Shown: in pieces, positions 3,103 through 7,433 of the stretch
Layout: the number at the start of each line of letters is the position of its first letter
How positions within the stretch are numbered: the first letter of the stretch is position 1
Origin: Nitrosopumilales archaeon
GTDB lineage: Archaea > Thermoproteota > Nitrososphaeria > Nitrososphaerales > Nitrosopumilaceae
Direction: 5' to 3'
Assembly (NCBI GenBank): GCA_016838825.1
Contig: JAEHKU010000003.1
Coordinates: 1,707 to 65,706 of the forward strand
DNA: 64,000 nt
Made by a program: the position numbers and the translations under genes
Notes under the pieces: model-generated
The model's input: only the letters and a program-made list of their open reading frames with translations
The model's database searches: none
What the model was told of the DNA's origin: nothing

Positions 3103-4578
3103 TTATAATGTAATCTTGATAATGTTATTTGTAATCAAATATTGTATTCCTGAAACAAAGTCCTGGTCAGAGATTAGACCATTGGACCACCATCCAGCGT
3201 TATTTTTAATCCAAGCAGGTATCTCGTTAGAGGCAGGACCTGAGCCTGGAGTAGTTGGTGGTATCTTCATAATTCCTTTATTGATTAGATATTGTATTCC
3301 TGAAACAAAGTCTGTGTCTCCAATCTGTCCGTTAGACCACCATCCAGCGTTATTTTTAACCCAATTTGGAATATCAAGACCGCCTTCGGTGGGGGCTGTA
3401 ACCTCACCAGAAATCACAATGTCGACTTGGAGTAAACCCGAAAATTCTGGAGATGGCACTATTTGCTTTGGTCCTACACCATAAACGAGGATTACATAAT
3501 GAGCTGTTCCTGGGGGTTCTTTTACTTCAATGAATCTATGTAATTGGCCGAATCCATTGAAGAGTGCATTTCTCCCTTCTTCCTGCGCCATCGATCTTAT
3601 TGTAAAACCCGCGTCATCAATTACTTGGATGTCATAATGAACTTCGTTTACCCATTCCACTTGGTTATATCTATTTTTGAAACTAATTTTCCACTCTATA
3701 TCACAGCCAGGCATTGGATGTTCTGGTCCGTAACGGTATTCTACAATCATTGAAAAAGAGTCCGTGGATTTTATACCGTTGACAGAGTCATAAGAACTGG
3801 GACACCCAGGTTTCGTTTTTTCAACGATGGGCGTGGGAACAACATCTGTGAAGGGGCTAGAATTTACATTTTCTTTATAGTCCAGCAATTCAAATTGAAA
3901 CTGTATTGGTGGGGTCCCCGTAGTTACCCATACATAGACTAGCGCCTTTATGGGAAAGGGAAAATCATCTACTACCCATATTAGGTTGCCTTGACCGTAA
4001 CCGCTATACCAACCAATCAGTACAGTATCAAACGTACCAGCGCCAACTGTGACGTCAGGTTCTACTCCCCATGGAATAAGTTGCGAGCCCCCAATTGCTG
4101 CTACCTTACCCCATGCAACTTTTCGGAAGGCTTGTGGACCGTGTATAAGATCATCTGGGTCTGATGTCGCAAAGGCAGACAACCAAACTATTGATGATTT
4201 AAACGCAATGCTATAATCAAATAGGTCACCACTGATACCAATTGGTTCTGGTGCTACTTTACCAAGTTCCATTTCTCCTTTTACAATTTTATTGCCATCA
4301 AGTACTACAGTCTCAACGAGCCATAGAGTTTCAGTTCCTTTCTGTGTTTCTCCTTTAAACCAGAGCTTCATATCAAAATCTGCACAATCATTAAGACTAA
4401 GTTCACAAAGTCTATAGTGGAAGTAATCTCCTTGTTTTAGGCCTTCTCCAACGTACCAAGTTCCATCAACATCAACACCACCAGCAGTTTTTACTCCTTG
4501 ACCAAATGCTTGCTGCGTAAAACTAAATCCACTAATCAAAAGAACAGAAATTAATACAACGACAAAATAGGTATTCAA
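3103..4578 (-). CDS. secreted protein with two C-terminal WWSNGQI-type repeats
   Basis: Exported protein of 491 residues. Residues 1-27 are a signal peptide with a hydrophobic core (VVVLISVLLISGF) and a cleavage-like AFGQ. The bulk (about 30-390) is beta-rich and Trp-rich with a Cys pair near the start (LCELSLNDC); I do not recognise a catalytic motif. The end holds two copies of a roughly 40-residue unit with core NNAGWWSNGQI/L followed by D.DFVSGIQYLI. This repeat is common at the C-termini of secreted thaumarchaeal proteins and may serve cell-surface attachment; that role is inference. It is probably displayed outside the membrane. Confidence 0.85.
   Translation of the reverse strand: MNTYFVVVLISVLLISGFSFTQQAFGQGVKTAGGVDVDGTWYVGEGLKQGDYFHYRLCELSLNDCADFDMKLWFKGETQKGTETLWLVETVVLDGNKIVKGEMELGKVAPEPIGISGDLFDYSIAFKSSIVWLSAFATSDPDDLIHGPQAFRKVAWGKVAAIGGSQLIPWGVEPDVTVGAGTFDTVLIGWYSGYGQGNLIWVVDDFPFPIKALVYVWVTTGTPPIQFQFELLDYKENVNSSPFTDVVPTPIVEKTKPGCPSSYDSVNGIKSTDSFSMIVEYRYGPEHPMPGCDIEWKISFKNRYNQVEWVNEVHYDIQVIDDAGFTIRSMAQEEGRNALFNGFGQLHRFIEVKEPPGTAHYVILVYGVGPKQIVPSPEFSGLLQVDIVISGEVTAPTEGGLDIPNWVKNNAGWWSNGQIGDTDFVSGIQYLINKGIMKIPPTTPGSGPASNEIPAWIKNNAGWWSNGLISDQDFVSGIQYLITNNIIKITL
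3140..3213. repeat. copy 1 of 150-bp-spaced coding repeat (WWSNG unit)
   Basis: Encodes the last WWSNG unit of the secreted protein at 3103-4578. It shares long identical blocks with the copy at 3290-3363, for example the 18 bases from 3203 leftwards containing CCACCATCCAGCG and the block ATTGTATTCCTGAAACAAAG. The nucleotide identity is higher than protein conservation would need, which suggests recent duplication or gene conversion. Confidence 0.8.
3290..3363. repeat. copy 2 of the WWSNG coding repeat
   Basis: Second copy, encoding the penultimate WWSNG unit, exactly 150 bases from the first. It shares the blocks ATTGTATTCCTGAAACAAAG and GACCACCATCCAGCGTTATT with copy 1. Confidence 0.8.
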
Positions 4579-4655
4579 GTAAATTACATTTGCAAATTTC
4601 CATAGTTAAATCTTTCAAATAGGCAAATATACTGGAACATTGAGAAATACTACAA

Positions 4656-4829
4656 ATGTGTGAGTGCTCCAAGGTTCACTTTTTTGAAGTTGAATTCAAG
4701 CTAGATGGAATGGTTGTTGTTCCAACTCACAAGAACTGTGGTGATCCATTAAATGAAAAGCAGGGAGACAAATTTCAAAAAGAACTAGTAAAACATTGGG
4801 GTATAAAAGAAGAAGATAGCTTCTTTTAA
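4656..4829 (+). CDS. small hypothetical protein, 57 aa
   Basis: Unrecognised short protein beginning MCECSKVHFFEVEF. It has a CxC near the N-terminus and a third Cys in THKNCGDPLNEKQGDKF, and ends with a helical acidic tail (HWGIKEEDSFF). The open frame is uninterrupted for 58 codons, and a possible box A (GTTAAATC near 4603-4611) lies upstream, though somewhat far. It is convergent with the Cys-rich gene at 4856-4999. The composition looks protein-like, with mixed polar and aromatic residues and a clear amphipathic C-terminus, but coding is not proven. Confidence 0.5.
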   Translation: MCECSKVHFFEVEFKLDGMVVVPTHKNCGDPLNEKQGDKFQKELVKHWGIKEEDSFF

Positions 4830-4855
4830 AAAAGAAAAGAAAATTAGAATATTTT

Positions 4856-4999
4856 TTATAGTGCGCTAACTGCTTCTTTGCAAACTTTTGATGCGCAGGT
4901 ACAATCTGCACTACAAATGCATGCAGCCTGCATTTCACAATCACATTTGTAAGTAGGATCGCCACTATCAGCTTCACAACCACAAGCTTGGTCTACCAT
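4856..4999 (-). CDS. Cys-rich metallothionein-like protein, 47 aa
   Basis: Nine cysteines in 47 residues, arranged as CxC pairs: C6/C8, C19/C21, C27/C29, C33/C35 and a single C40, with no aromatic residue apart from one Tyr. This spacing is what metallothioneins and other metal-thiolate proteins use to bind Zn or Cu clusters. It starts with ATG (MVDQACGCEADSG) and ends at a TAA. Assignment as a metal-binding protein follows from composition; the metal and role are inference. It is downstream of the 293-residue unknown at 5071-5952 on the same strand, about 70 bases apart. Confidence 0.72.
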   Translation of the reverse strand: MVDQACGCEADSGDPTYKCDCEMQAACICSADCTCASKVCKEAVSAL

Positions 5000-5070
5000 G
5001 TCAGGATGATCTTTTGCTTTGTTTTAAATCTTTGTAGGAAATTATATAATTTCAATAAAAACAACGCCGT

Positions 5071-5952
5071 TTACTTTTTCACCATTGAAACTAGTTCGTT
5101 GGCAGTCCTTAAAACAACTGAAGCCTGTCGTTCAACTTCTAACTGGTCGCTCTCAATATCAAATGCAATTTTCAAAATGTGGATAAGCTCTGGCTTTCGG
5201 TGTATTTTGTCTTTGATCTTGATGAAGTTATTACGATTAGTATATCCTAAATAAAAATAACAATCCGTGAGAAGAGAATTACGTATTAGATAATCATATT
5301 TTAGTTGTATGATACGTGAATGACCATTAGCTTCAACCATGTCAGAAAATCCTACTGTTGACTTGGACATTCTTTGCAAAAGTGAGGTTGTAGCTCGTTC
5401 AATGCCAATACATTGATTGACAACACCAAAAGCTTCATTAATTCTATTTTTTTTAAATCCTCGTACATGTTCCAAGATGTGAGTAGGACTAGGTCTTTTT
5501 GCATTTACTAACAAAATTGCATCAGCAATAAAAAATGCAGCACATTTTAACCAGCAAGATGAAAAAGGATCTGATGACTTGATTCCTTCCATTGCCTTAG
5601 TTGCATAGATAGATGCATCAACTAGACAGCTTTTTAAATAAGAATTAGAAATCTTTTTGCTTTTTTCGCTTATCTTTGATAAAAAAATGCGTAGATTCCA
5701 TTCATCATCAGATAATATTTTCATGCCTTGGTATTGTGTTAATATTGCTGAATCAGTCTCAGAAAGTGTACCATGATGTAATTTAACAAATTCTCCGTCT
5801 AATTGAATTATAGAGTCTTCTTCTACTTTGTCATCAAAGATAGTAATATTGTATTCGCAACAATCAAAAGTTGTACCGGCATTTTTGCATCCACCAAGTC
5901 CTACAGGAAAATTTACTGGTGAGAGTTTTTCTAATAAGATTTTTAGATCCAC
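5071..5952 (-). CDS. conserved hypothetical protein, 293 aa
   Basis: No domain recognised. The N-terminal part (residues 1-75) has a Gly/Cys patch (VGLGGCKNAGTTFDCCEY) followed by beta-strand-like sequence. The rest (about 80-293) is helical and looks like a compact helical bundle, with a conserved-looking centre DASIYATKAMEGIKSSDPF and CWLKCAAFFIADAIL. There is no signal peptide. It starts 32 bases downstream of the glutamine synthetase stop on the same strand, so the two may form an operon. A nucleotide-handling role is conceivable but not supported by a motif. Confidence 0.7.
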   Translation of the reverse strand: MDLKILLEKLSPVNFPVGLGGCKNAGTTFDCCEYNITIFDDKVEEDSIIQLDGEFVKLHHGTLSETDSAILTQYQGMKILSDDEWNLRIFLSKISEKSKKISNSYLKSCLVDASIYATKAMEGIKSSDPFSSCWLKCAAFFIADAILLVNAKRPSPTHILEHVRGFKKNRINEAFGVVNQCIGIERATTSLLQRMSKSTVGFSDMVEANGHSRIIQLKYDYLIRNSLLTDCYFYLGYTNRNNFIKIKDKIHRKPELIHILKIAFDIESDQLEVERQASVVLRTANELVSMVKK

Positions 5953-5984: not shown

Positions 5985-7433
5985 TTAAGCATCGGCATAC
6001 ATTGAAACTTCCCAAGGAGTTGGAGTTTGGGCAAAAGCTGAAAATTCTGAATATTTCATTAATAGATATGCATCAATGAGATCCTTTGTGAAAACTGGTT
6101 CCAAGAATTTGCTATCGTTTGAGAGCGCATCTAAAGCATCCTTTAGTGATGAAGGTAGCGAAGTAATATTACGCTCTCTTTTTTGCTCCGGAGTCAATTT
6201 GTAGACGTTTTCCTGTACTGGATCTCCAGGATCCAGTTTTCTTCGTATGCCATCTAGTCCAGCAAGGAGAAGGGCTGATTCCAAAAGGTAAATGTTTGCA
6301 GTGGGATCTGGAACTCTGTATTCGATTCTCTTAGTCTTTTCCTGGTTCCTATAATACATTGGCACTCTAATTGCAGTTGATCTATTTCCAATACCCCAAC
6401 ATTTGTTTACAGGAGCTTCAAAGTTTGGAACTAGCCTCTTGTAAGAATTTGTTGTTGGATTAGAAATTGCGCAAATTGCTGGTGCATGATCTAAAAGTCC
6501 GCCTATATAATATCGGCCCATTTGACTTAGTTCCGCTGCTTGATCATTAGGATCGTACATTGCATTTGTACTATTTTTCCACAAACTTTGATGAATGTGC
6601 ATGGCAGATGCATTATCGCCATAGATTGGTTTTGGCATGAATGTTGCAATTTTGCCATTTCTCTTCGCTTTAACTTGGACTAGATTTTTTATAGTAACAA
6701 CAGAATCGGCAATTTTTGTAGTTTCACTGTAACGTAAGTTTATTTCACATTGACCAGATGTAGCGACTTCATGATGTTCGGCTTCTACTTCAATTCCAAA
6801 ATATTTGTACAAATCATCACAAATGTCTTTTCTCAAAGGATCAAGAGTGTCTTTAGGTTGTGAGGGGTAGTAACCCTCTTTCAGATCAATTGATGTACCT
6901 ACATTTCCTCTTGTCCATGGTGCCTCTTTTGATTCAATAGAATATCCAGAACCACCAAAAGAATGAGTGGCACCGTAAGCAGATGGATAGAGGTTTATCT
7001 TATCGAATATAAAAAATTCTATTTCTGGACCCCAGTTAGCATGACTTAGTCCGAAACCCTCAAGCTCCTTTGCTGCTTTTTCTGTTATACTACGTGAGTC
7101 TCGATTGTATCTCTTAGGTGAAGAATCGCTTAATTCGTATATATCAACAAACATACGAGCATTCTTTCGTCTTCCTTGATCATAATCTGGAGGAAGAATT
7201 CTAAATGTAGATGTATCTGGAAATAGTAACATATCTGATTGATTAATCGATTTGAAGCCACGAATTGAACTGGCATCTAGCTTATCAAGGCCATTTTTGA
7301 AGTCTTCTTCCTCCAATGAGTATGCAGGCATTCCCATTCTGTGTAACTCGCCAAAAATGTCTACAAACCAAAAATCAATGAAAGAAACTTTTTCATCCTT
7401 GATCTTTTGTATAATGTTCTCGTTGCTCAACAA
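5985..7433 (-). CDS. glnA: glutamine synthetase, type I
   Basis: Joins ammonia to glutamate with ATP, the main ammonia assimilation step; it forms cytosolic dodecamers. At 482 residues it has the GS-I length. Recognisable blocks are VDIFGELHRMGMP near the N-terminus, GPEIEFFIFD (metal-binding Glu), AEHHEVATSGQCEI, the His-loop region GDNASAMHIHQSLW, NRSTAIRVP and IEYRVPDPTANIYL. The usual NGSGMH loop reads NASAMH here, with two Gly-to-Ala changes beside the catalytic His. The Tyr near NVYKLTPE aligns roughly with the bacterial adenylylation site, but archaeal enzymes are not known to use it. It is the first gene of a possible pair with 5071-5952. Confidence 0.97.
   Translation of the reverse strand: MLSNENIIQKIKDEKVSFIDFWFVDIFGELHRMGMPAYSLEEEDFKNGLDKLDASSIRGFKSINQSDMLLFPDTSTFRILPPDYDQGRRKNARMFVDIYELSDSSPKRYNRDSRSITEKAAKELEGFGLSHANWGPEIEFFIFDKINLYPSAYGATHSFGGSGYSIESKEAPWTRGNVGTSIDLKEGYYPSQPKDTLDPLRKDICDDLYKYFGIEVEAEHHEVATSGQCEINLRYSETTKIADSVVTIKNLVQVKAKRNGKIATFMPKPIYGDNASAMHIHQSLWKNSTNAMYDPNDQAAELSQMGRYYIGGLLDHAPAICAISNPTTNSYKRLVPNFEAPVNKCWGIGNRSTAIRVPMYYRNQEKTKRIEYRVPDPTANIYLLESALLLAGLDGIRRKLDPGDPVQENVYKLTPEQKRERNITSLPSSLKDALDALSNDSKFLEPVFTKDLIDAYLLMKYSEFSAFAQTPTPWEVSMYADA

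Follow-up and report, generated by a model that had tools for sequence, protein, structure and literature searches.

A nine-cysteine metallothionein-like peptide conserved in ammonia-oxidizing archaea, and its membrane-tethered copies

Introduction

Ammonia-oxidizing archaea (AOA) depend on copper enzymes, and a published genome survey found no known copper efflux in the AOA it examined and questioned how these organisms tolerate copper (PMC9723733). A 47-codon open reading frame (ORF) rich in Cys codons, located in a 64,000-nucleotide stretch of DNA from a Nitrosopumilales archaeon (the window, which denotes that whole stretch), raises the question of whether such an organism possesses a dedicated metal-binding peptide, and for which metal. 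A reading made from the sequence alone had described the product as metallothionein-like and suggested copper as its metal. Here we ask whether the ORF is a gene, how widely it is distributed, in what forms it occurs, and which function best explains these features. What is new here is that the nine-Cys domain exists not only as a free peptide, but also as a membrane-tethered copy in many genomes of the same family.

Results

A conserved gene of 47 codons

The gene occupies positions 4856..4999 on the minus strand (the sequence-only reading was silent on strand), and consists of 47 codons and a stop codon at 4856-4858; from its ATG start it translates as MVDQACGCEADSGDPTYKCDCEMQAACICSADCTCASKVCKEAVSAL followed by the stop. 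The earlier description of nine Cys in CxC pairs was right about the number and the 47-residue length, and needs correction as to the pairing: eight Cys form four CxC pairs, and C40 stands alone. Metallothioneins are small, Cys-rich proteins with CxC motifs and few or no aromatic residues. The peptide has this character, with nine Cys among its 47 residues (19%), four CxC motifs, and one Tyr as its sole aromatic residue; no signal peptide is apparent by eye in the free form. In a search of 101 genomes, 58 of the 61 belonging to the same family gave a match, versus none of the 40 others, and the ORF is therefore a real gene and not an accident of translation.

Relatives of the peptide preserve its Cys framework. 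In an alignment of 33 copies that we picked from those found, which also served as search profile A1, the invariant columns are C6, C8, C19, D20, C21, C27, C29, C33, C35 and C40; the most distant members share 35-43% identity with the window copy, and between the Cys there is little conservation from one peptide type to another. (Three fused copies, L040, L041 and L042, were omitted from one alignment; they are present in A1 and keep their Cys.) A search of named records, in which 80 of the 129 loci found were kept, extended the comparison to 72 free copies (the window copy and 71 others, 62 distinct proteins), every one of which has nine Cys, with both TGT and TGC occurring at each of the nine codons. 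Loss of Cys positions in relatives, which the earlier reading had named as grounds for rejecting it, was thus looked for and not seen in the 33 or the 72 copies. Median dN/dS among the free copies is 0.125 over 1684 pairs retained at 0.1<dS<1.5 from at most 2556, the pairs dropped being saturated, undefined, too close, or containing N. Of eight pairs inspected that involve the window copy, two have a usable dS (1.25 and 1.19), with ratios of about 0.13 and 0.14, and the remaining six are saturated or undefined. These comparisons show purifying selection on the gene in its relatives.

Free peptides fall into two kinds. The first has 46-51 residues (VDQACGCEADSGDP...); the second, from other genera, has 44-47 (SDAACGC...). 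No conserved His is present in the 33 copies of A1, and neither the window copy nor the A1 consensus contains a conserved CxxC; an extra Cys creates a single CxxC in four loci (L004, L005, L006 and L016). A ferredoxin-type iron-sulfur protein or a CxxC zinc-knuckle protein can be set aside, as the conserved CxxC ligand motifs are absent.

Curated families offered no name for the peptide. Scans of Pfam and NCBIfam returned no family up to an E-value of 10, a result to be read with the caution that HMMER filters can hide weak matches; with both scans empty, membership in the SmtA type of bacterial metallothionein, as defined by curated profile, was rejected. Searching the PDB with the peptide yielded UBR-box chains only, at E 0.059 or worse, which we judged to be chance matches driven by Cys, and searching it with profile A1 yielded no chain. 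None of the titles listed in our literature search concerns such a gene; subscription papers, including the Nitrosopumilus maritimus copper transcriptome cited by PMC7785015, lay outside its scope.

A promoter of its own

A TATA-type box, TTTAAAA, lies at 5022..5028 on the minus strand, 22 bases upstream of the ATG. Of the 72 free genes, 70 have a T[T/A]AAAA box whose end lies 21-24 bases before the ATG, at exactly 22 bases in 55 of them, whereas control windows farther upstream, which extend into the upstream gene, contain it in 0, 1 and 1 of 72. Across 69 of the 70 box-bearing upstream regions (one was too short), the mean majority-base frequency is 0.83 in the box block, compared with 0.50 upstream and 0.54 downstream of it. 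This conservation shows that the box is the gene's own promoter box, which weakens the idea that the gene is transcribed solely by read-through from its upstream neighbor. Because an archaeal TATA box at this distance places the transcript start at or next to the ATG, the mRNA is probably leaderless.

An extended 22-base form of the box, TACTAACNTTTTAAAANNAGTA, occurs exactly in 34 of the 72 genes, the window gene not being among them. It was sought in 12 genomes of genera g11 and g14, where it is found once per genome in all 12 and always before the nine-Cys gene, with no mismatch in 11 genomes and one in G160; since the sequence was derived from this promoter, the informative points are its conservation and its absence elsewhere, rather than its presence. 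All other matches carry three mismatches, and a backward-read control gives more matches in each genome. A copper regulon sharing this promoter box was accordingly not found in the 12 genomes, the non-self matches being fewer than those of the control. Scanning 4600-5200 for sigma-70 promoters and terminators gave no useful information, the host being an archaeon.

Distribution within one archaeal family

Profile A1 matches 203 of 400 genomes sampled from the class, all of them from the same family. Among the genomes listed for this sample, 203 of 221 same-family members match, so at least 18 do not, including four that are 90-97% complete (G202, G009, G019 and G267); a further 177 non-matching genomes lie beyond those listed. 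In a sample of the phylum, 63 of 398 genomes match, again every one same-family, and no same-family genome appears among the 20 non-matching ones listed, with 315 more non-matching. The named records that bear the gene belong to Nitrosopumilus, Nitrosarchaeum, Nitrosotenuis, Nitrosopelagicus, Cenarchaeum and Marine Group I, and we therefore call the family Nitrosopumilaceae in the GTDB sense, the NCBI Nitrosopumilaceae being narrower. Two matching metagenome-assembled genomes (L103 and L151) are labeled Nitrososphaeraceae, which we take for mislabeling. In the samples searched, the nine-Cys gene is thus shown to be a conserved gene of one ammonia-oxidizing archaeal family of Nitrosopumilaceae type. 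No relative of the peptide was found in viral contigs, phages, plasmids or PHROGs.

The window's genome, which is 93% complete, has two partial amoA matches on two contigs (G000:C49:3-314 and G000:C30:11259-11567), most likely a single gene divided by an assembly break; the host is therefore an ammonia oxidizer. Three other families, f2, f3 and f8, each include one genome in which amoA was found, and profile A1 detected no peptide in any of these families in the 400-genome class sample, from which it follows that the peptide is unnecessary for ammonia oxidation as such.

Two other protein families bear on copper. HMA has 111 matches in 300 genomes, with 34 same-family genomes among them, so that a claim of no other copper handling is not valid for all members, and the published statement about AOA copper may not be true of every same-family genome. 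DUF326 (PF03860), which we take to be the copper storage protein (Csp) family, has 14 matches in 320 genomes, 13 in family f8 and one in f1; this distribution, mainly in f8, is the reverse of that of the nine-Cys peptide. Neither HMA nor DUF326 has a match in the window's genome, though amoA is present there.

Conserved neighbors

Directly upstream on the same strand, 71 bases away, lies the 293-codon gene (5071..5952, minus strand) beside which the earlier reading had correctly placed the ORF. Of 58 genomes with the free gene, 56 have this gene in the same upstream position and orientation, at a spacing, judged by match ends, of 52-141 bases in 51 of 57 pairs; two pairs are separated by 855 and 1260 bases. 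A structural model of the protein (pLDDT 93.4, from 59 sequences) resembles aminoglycoside and kanamycin nucleotidyltransferases, suggesting an ANT/KNTase-like fold: its comparison with 6p06_A gives a Z of 11.7 and an rmsd of 4.4 over 209 residues, where a Z under about 13 can reflect an arrangement common in helical proteins, the top rows being nucleotidyltransferases nonetheless, and the best Foldseek E-value is 1.5e-4. The family is spread across the order (93 of 121 genomes), and the gene therefore probably predates the nine-Cys peptide. Where the family consensus has CDYD, the window copy has CEYN; catalysis by this copy is therefore doubtful, and it may be dead as an enzyme.

Convergent with the nine-Cys gene is a conserved ORF of 57 residues beginning MCECSKVH (4656..4829, plus strand), without a match in Pfam and NCBIfam scans, and farther downstream is a gene for a secreted-type protein of 491 residues (3103-4578, minus strand), without a Pfam match, that carries two C-terminal repeats like IPxWIKNNAGWWSNGxIxDxDFVSGIQYLI. 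Homologues of the former occur in 54 and of the latter in 70 of the 80 loci, counts in which nine loci are of the fused form described below and some contigs end early. As far as the conserved neighbors can be read, no copper genes were seen among them.

A membrane-protein form of the nine-Cys domain

In 36 of the 63 same-family genomes of the phylum sample (rows counted by eye), the profile also matches within a frame of more than 400 codons; one further long-frame match, in G014, contains an internal stop. The free gene is present in 62 of the 63, the exception being G182. The fused frames span about 455-530 codons, and the proteins that were read begin with a signal peptide and an ectodomain of about 290 residues; a single hydrophobic segment and a linker ('NRGEAQL') then lead to the C-terminal nine-Cys domain. 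Both hydrophobic segments were seen in 18 of 19 fused proteins examined, the second falling below threshold in L110; because L013 and L096 are identical in protein sequence, the 19 rows represent 18 or fewer distinct proteins. Net charge in 18 of the proteins is -3 to +1 before the last segment and +1 to +4 after it, and by the positive-inside rule the nine-Cys domain is predicted, where examined, to be the cytosolic tail of a single-pass membrane protein. No Cys precedes the last hydrophobic segment in 15 of 18 fused proteins; the exceptions, L092 with one and L036 and L037 with two, are possibly reads that extend too far at the N-terminus.

The tails are of two kinds, one of the 'EEAACGCAAS' type and the other a near-copy of the free peptide, mostly retaining its start Met ('TPTMIDQACGCEADSGDP'). 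The second kind looks as if a copy of the free gene had replaced the original tail. Concerted evolution or ongoing gene conversion between free and fused copies found no support as a rule, since a fused copy ranked its own genome's free gene first in only two of eight same-genome pairs (permutation p 0.24); over 114 bases these two pairs reach 96.5 and 98.2% identity.

The membrane protein itself was matched in 84 of 121 genomes, or 80 after removal of four (G037, G044, G045 and G104) apparently matched through the Cys domain alone; 11 of the 80 belong to families f2, f3 and f8. In the window's genome it is present without a Cys tail (G000:C7:21613-22842; L163:4587-5849). G045, a 99% complete genome, possesses the free peptide, and its membrane-protein match is apparently at the level of the Cys domain only, so that the free peptide and the membrane protein are not always paired. 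In all nine named fused loci, the fused gene adjoins cofC and cofD, both named by eye from their sequences. A model of the fused protein, built from nine related sequences, reached a pLDDT of 33.9 and was set aside.

One genome, G106, combines several of these elements. A membrane-protein paralogue there (L172:4521-5819, minus strand) ends in a zinc-ribbon-like tail (CFKCGYYT...HCSNCGAARPT), for which Pfam gives a weak RanBP-type match (E 0.0042, below Pfam's cut-off). The cytosolic tail of the membrane protein thus appears to be modular: a nine-Cys domain, a zinc-ribbon-like domain, or none. The paralogue is flanked by a 155-base inverted repeat (L172:2508-2662 and 7105-7259), inside which lie two extra nine-Cys copies, one of them about 425 bases downstream of amoA. 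This proximity is a single case that could be due to chance; copies beside amoA were seen in G106 only, and do not constitute a general rule.

Discussion

We consider the probable identity of the nine-Cys peptide to be a small cytosolic metallothionein of Nitrosopumilaceae type, occurring in soluble and membrane-tethered forms and buffering a thiophilic metal, with Cu(I) likelier than Zn(II). The earlier designation as metallothionein-like is borne out at the level of sequence by size, Cys density, invariant Cys, CxC spacing and the lack of an apparent signal peptide; its proposal of copper is best retained as a plausible assignment. We envisage that the nine invariant thiolates would wrap a single multinuclear cluster of thiophilic metal, most likely Cu(I) and next most likely Zn(II), and that the peptide, expressed from its own promoter and probably from a leaderless mRNA, would buffer, store or detoxify that metal. 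The tethered unit would keep some of this metal at the inner side of the membrane, the outer side of which carries the copper enzymes. Metal binding, the identity of the metal, a buffering or storage role, and delivery or capture at the membrane are all inferred, and should be understood as a proposal.

Four indirect pointers favor Cu(I) over Zn(II): the Cys spacing, the absence of conserved His, the distributions of DUF326 and HMA, and the G106 copy near amoA. Several observations count against a copper role, among them the nature of the conserved neighbors (nucleotidyltransferase-like, secreted-type, and the 57-residue ORF) and of the genes read as cofC and cofD beside the fused gene, the lack of the peptide in families f2, f3 and f8 despite an amoA-bearing genome in each, and the four same-family genomes that are 90-97% complete and have no match. 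We also count against it N. sinensis, whose genus GTDB places in the family bearing the nine-Cys gene. This species is reported to be low in copper and very sensitive to it (PMC13003922).

Zinc is the principal competitor. CxC-rich peptides can also bind Zn(II), copper and zinc thiolates are indistinguishable by sequence, and the same cluster could belong to a zinc or general d10-metal metallothionein with Zn(II) as its physiological metal, as in SmtA, copper being irrelevant. The occurrence of the peptide in HMA-bearing genomes (for example G016, G033 and G057), where a copper route may already exist, and its absence from the other families with an amoA-bearing genome would suit such a protein; the lack of conserved His, unlike the SmtA type, and a Cys spacing near that of a fungal copper thionein speak for copper instead, and we regard the zinc protein as unlikely, if well worth keeping in mind.

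The variable tail of the membrane protein (nine-Cys domain, the RanBP-type zinc-ribbon-like domain of L172, or none), together with the invariance of D20, invites a different interpretation, in which the nine-Cys unit is a docking or regulatory module: its free and tail forms would both bind one common partner in the cytosol, and the Cys would hold structural zinc and not a metal store. Nine Cys within 35 residues are more than one or two structural zinc sites call for, and the stretches between them vary greatly from type to type; such a module seems improbable to us. Still more remote is a purely antioxidant function, with the Cys as a sacrificial thiol pool against reactive oxygen and nitrogen species arising from ammonia oxidation and no role for metal: a thiol pool would not require nine Cys that are all invariant and strictly spaced, and no match is seen in the other families with an amoA-bearing genome, even if AOA genomes lack catalase according to the survey (PMC9723733).

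Taking the metallothionein interpretation as the preferred one, a dedicated metal-thiolate peptide with a tethered form is a concrete candidate for the missing part of copper tolerance in these archaea, and is small enough to be tested as a synthetic peptide. A bolder extension, which we offer tentatively as a possibility with the balance against it, is a transmembrane metallothionein: a complete metallothionein unit serving as the cytosolic tail of a conserved single-pass protein in more than half of the sampled family genomes, interchangeable with the free peptide, that would form a two-compartment relay or store of metal, probably copper. If true, this would place a transmembrane metallothionein in the archaea that dominate ocean nitrification.

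Among known systems, the metallothionein of Neurospora crassa (1T2Y), which binds copper, is likewise small and Cys-rich, with the core spacing CxC-x5-CxC-x3-CxC. From C19 to C40 the peptide reads CxC-x5-CxC-x3-CxC-x4-C, and 1T2Y reads CxC-x5-CxC-x3-CxC-x2-C; the fungal protein has 25 residues, seven Cys and a last spacer of 2, versus 47 residues, nine Cys and a last spacer of 4. With this longer spacer and two further Cys, the peptide is not a member of the ascomycete copper metallothioneins, and the resemblance may lie in the way of working only, profile A1 having matched no PDB chain. SmtA-type bacterial zinc metallothioneins, which use His, are also small prokaryotic metal-thiolate proteins; the nine-Cys peptide differs in having neither a conserved His nor a Pfam match. 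A zinc-finger fold is ascribed to the SmtA type in one account (PMC7558416). The same account describes MymT of Mycobacterium tuberculosis, likewise a very small Cys-rich peptide whose ORF had at first gone unannotated, with a reported role in copper resistance (PMC7558416); homology to MymT was addressed only through the empty Pfam and NCBIfam scans. Csp is, like the proposed peptide, a cytosolic Cys-rich copper store, described in that account as a four-helix bundle (PMC7558416), and another study reports that one such protein is upregulated in the AOA Nitrososphaera viennensis when copper is limiting (PMC7785015). The DUF326 frames of the class are mostly 106-137 codons long, versus 47 residues here, and with this length and no Pfam match the peptide is not a Csp. 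The tethered form, finally, recalls CupA, the membrane-anchored copper chaperone of Streptococcus, as a copper-binding unit attached to the membrane (PMC7558416); CupA is a different protein, whereas the fused form described here would hold its metal in a nine-Cys tail that follows an ectodomain of about 290 residues.
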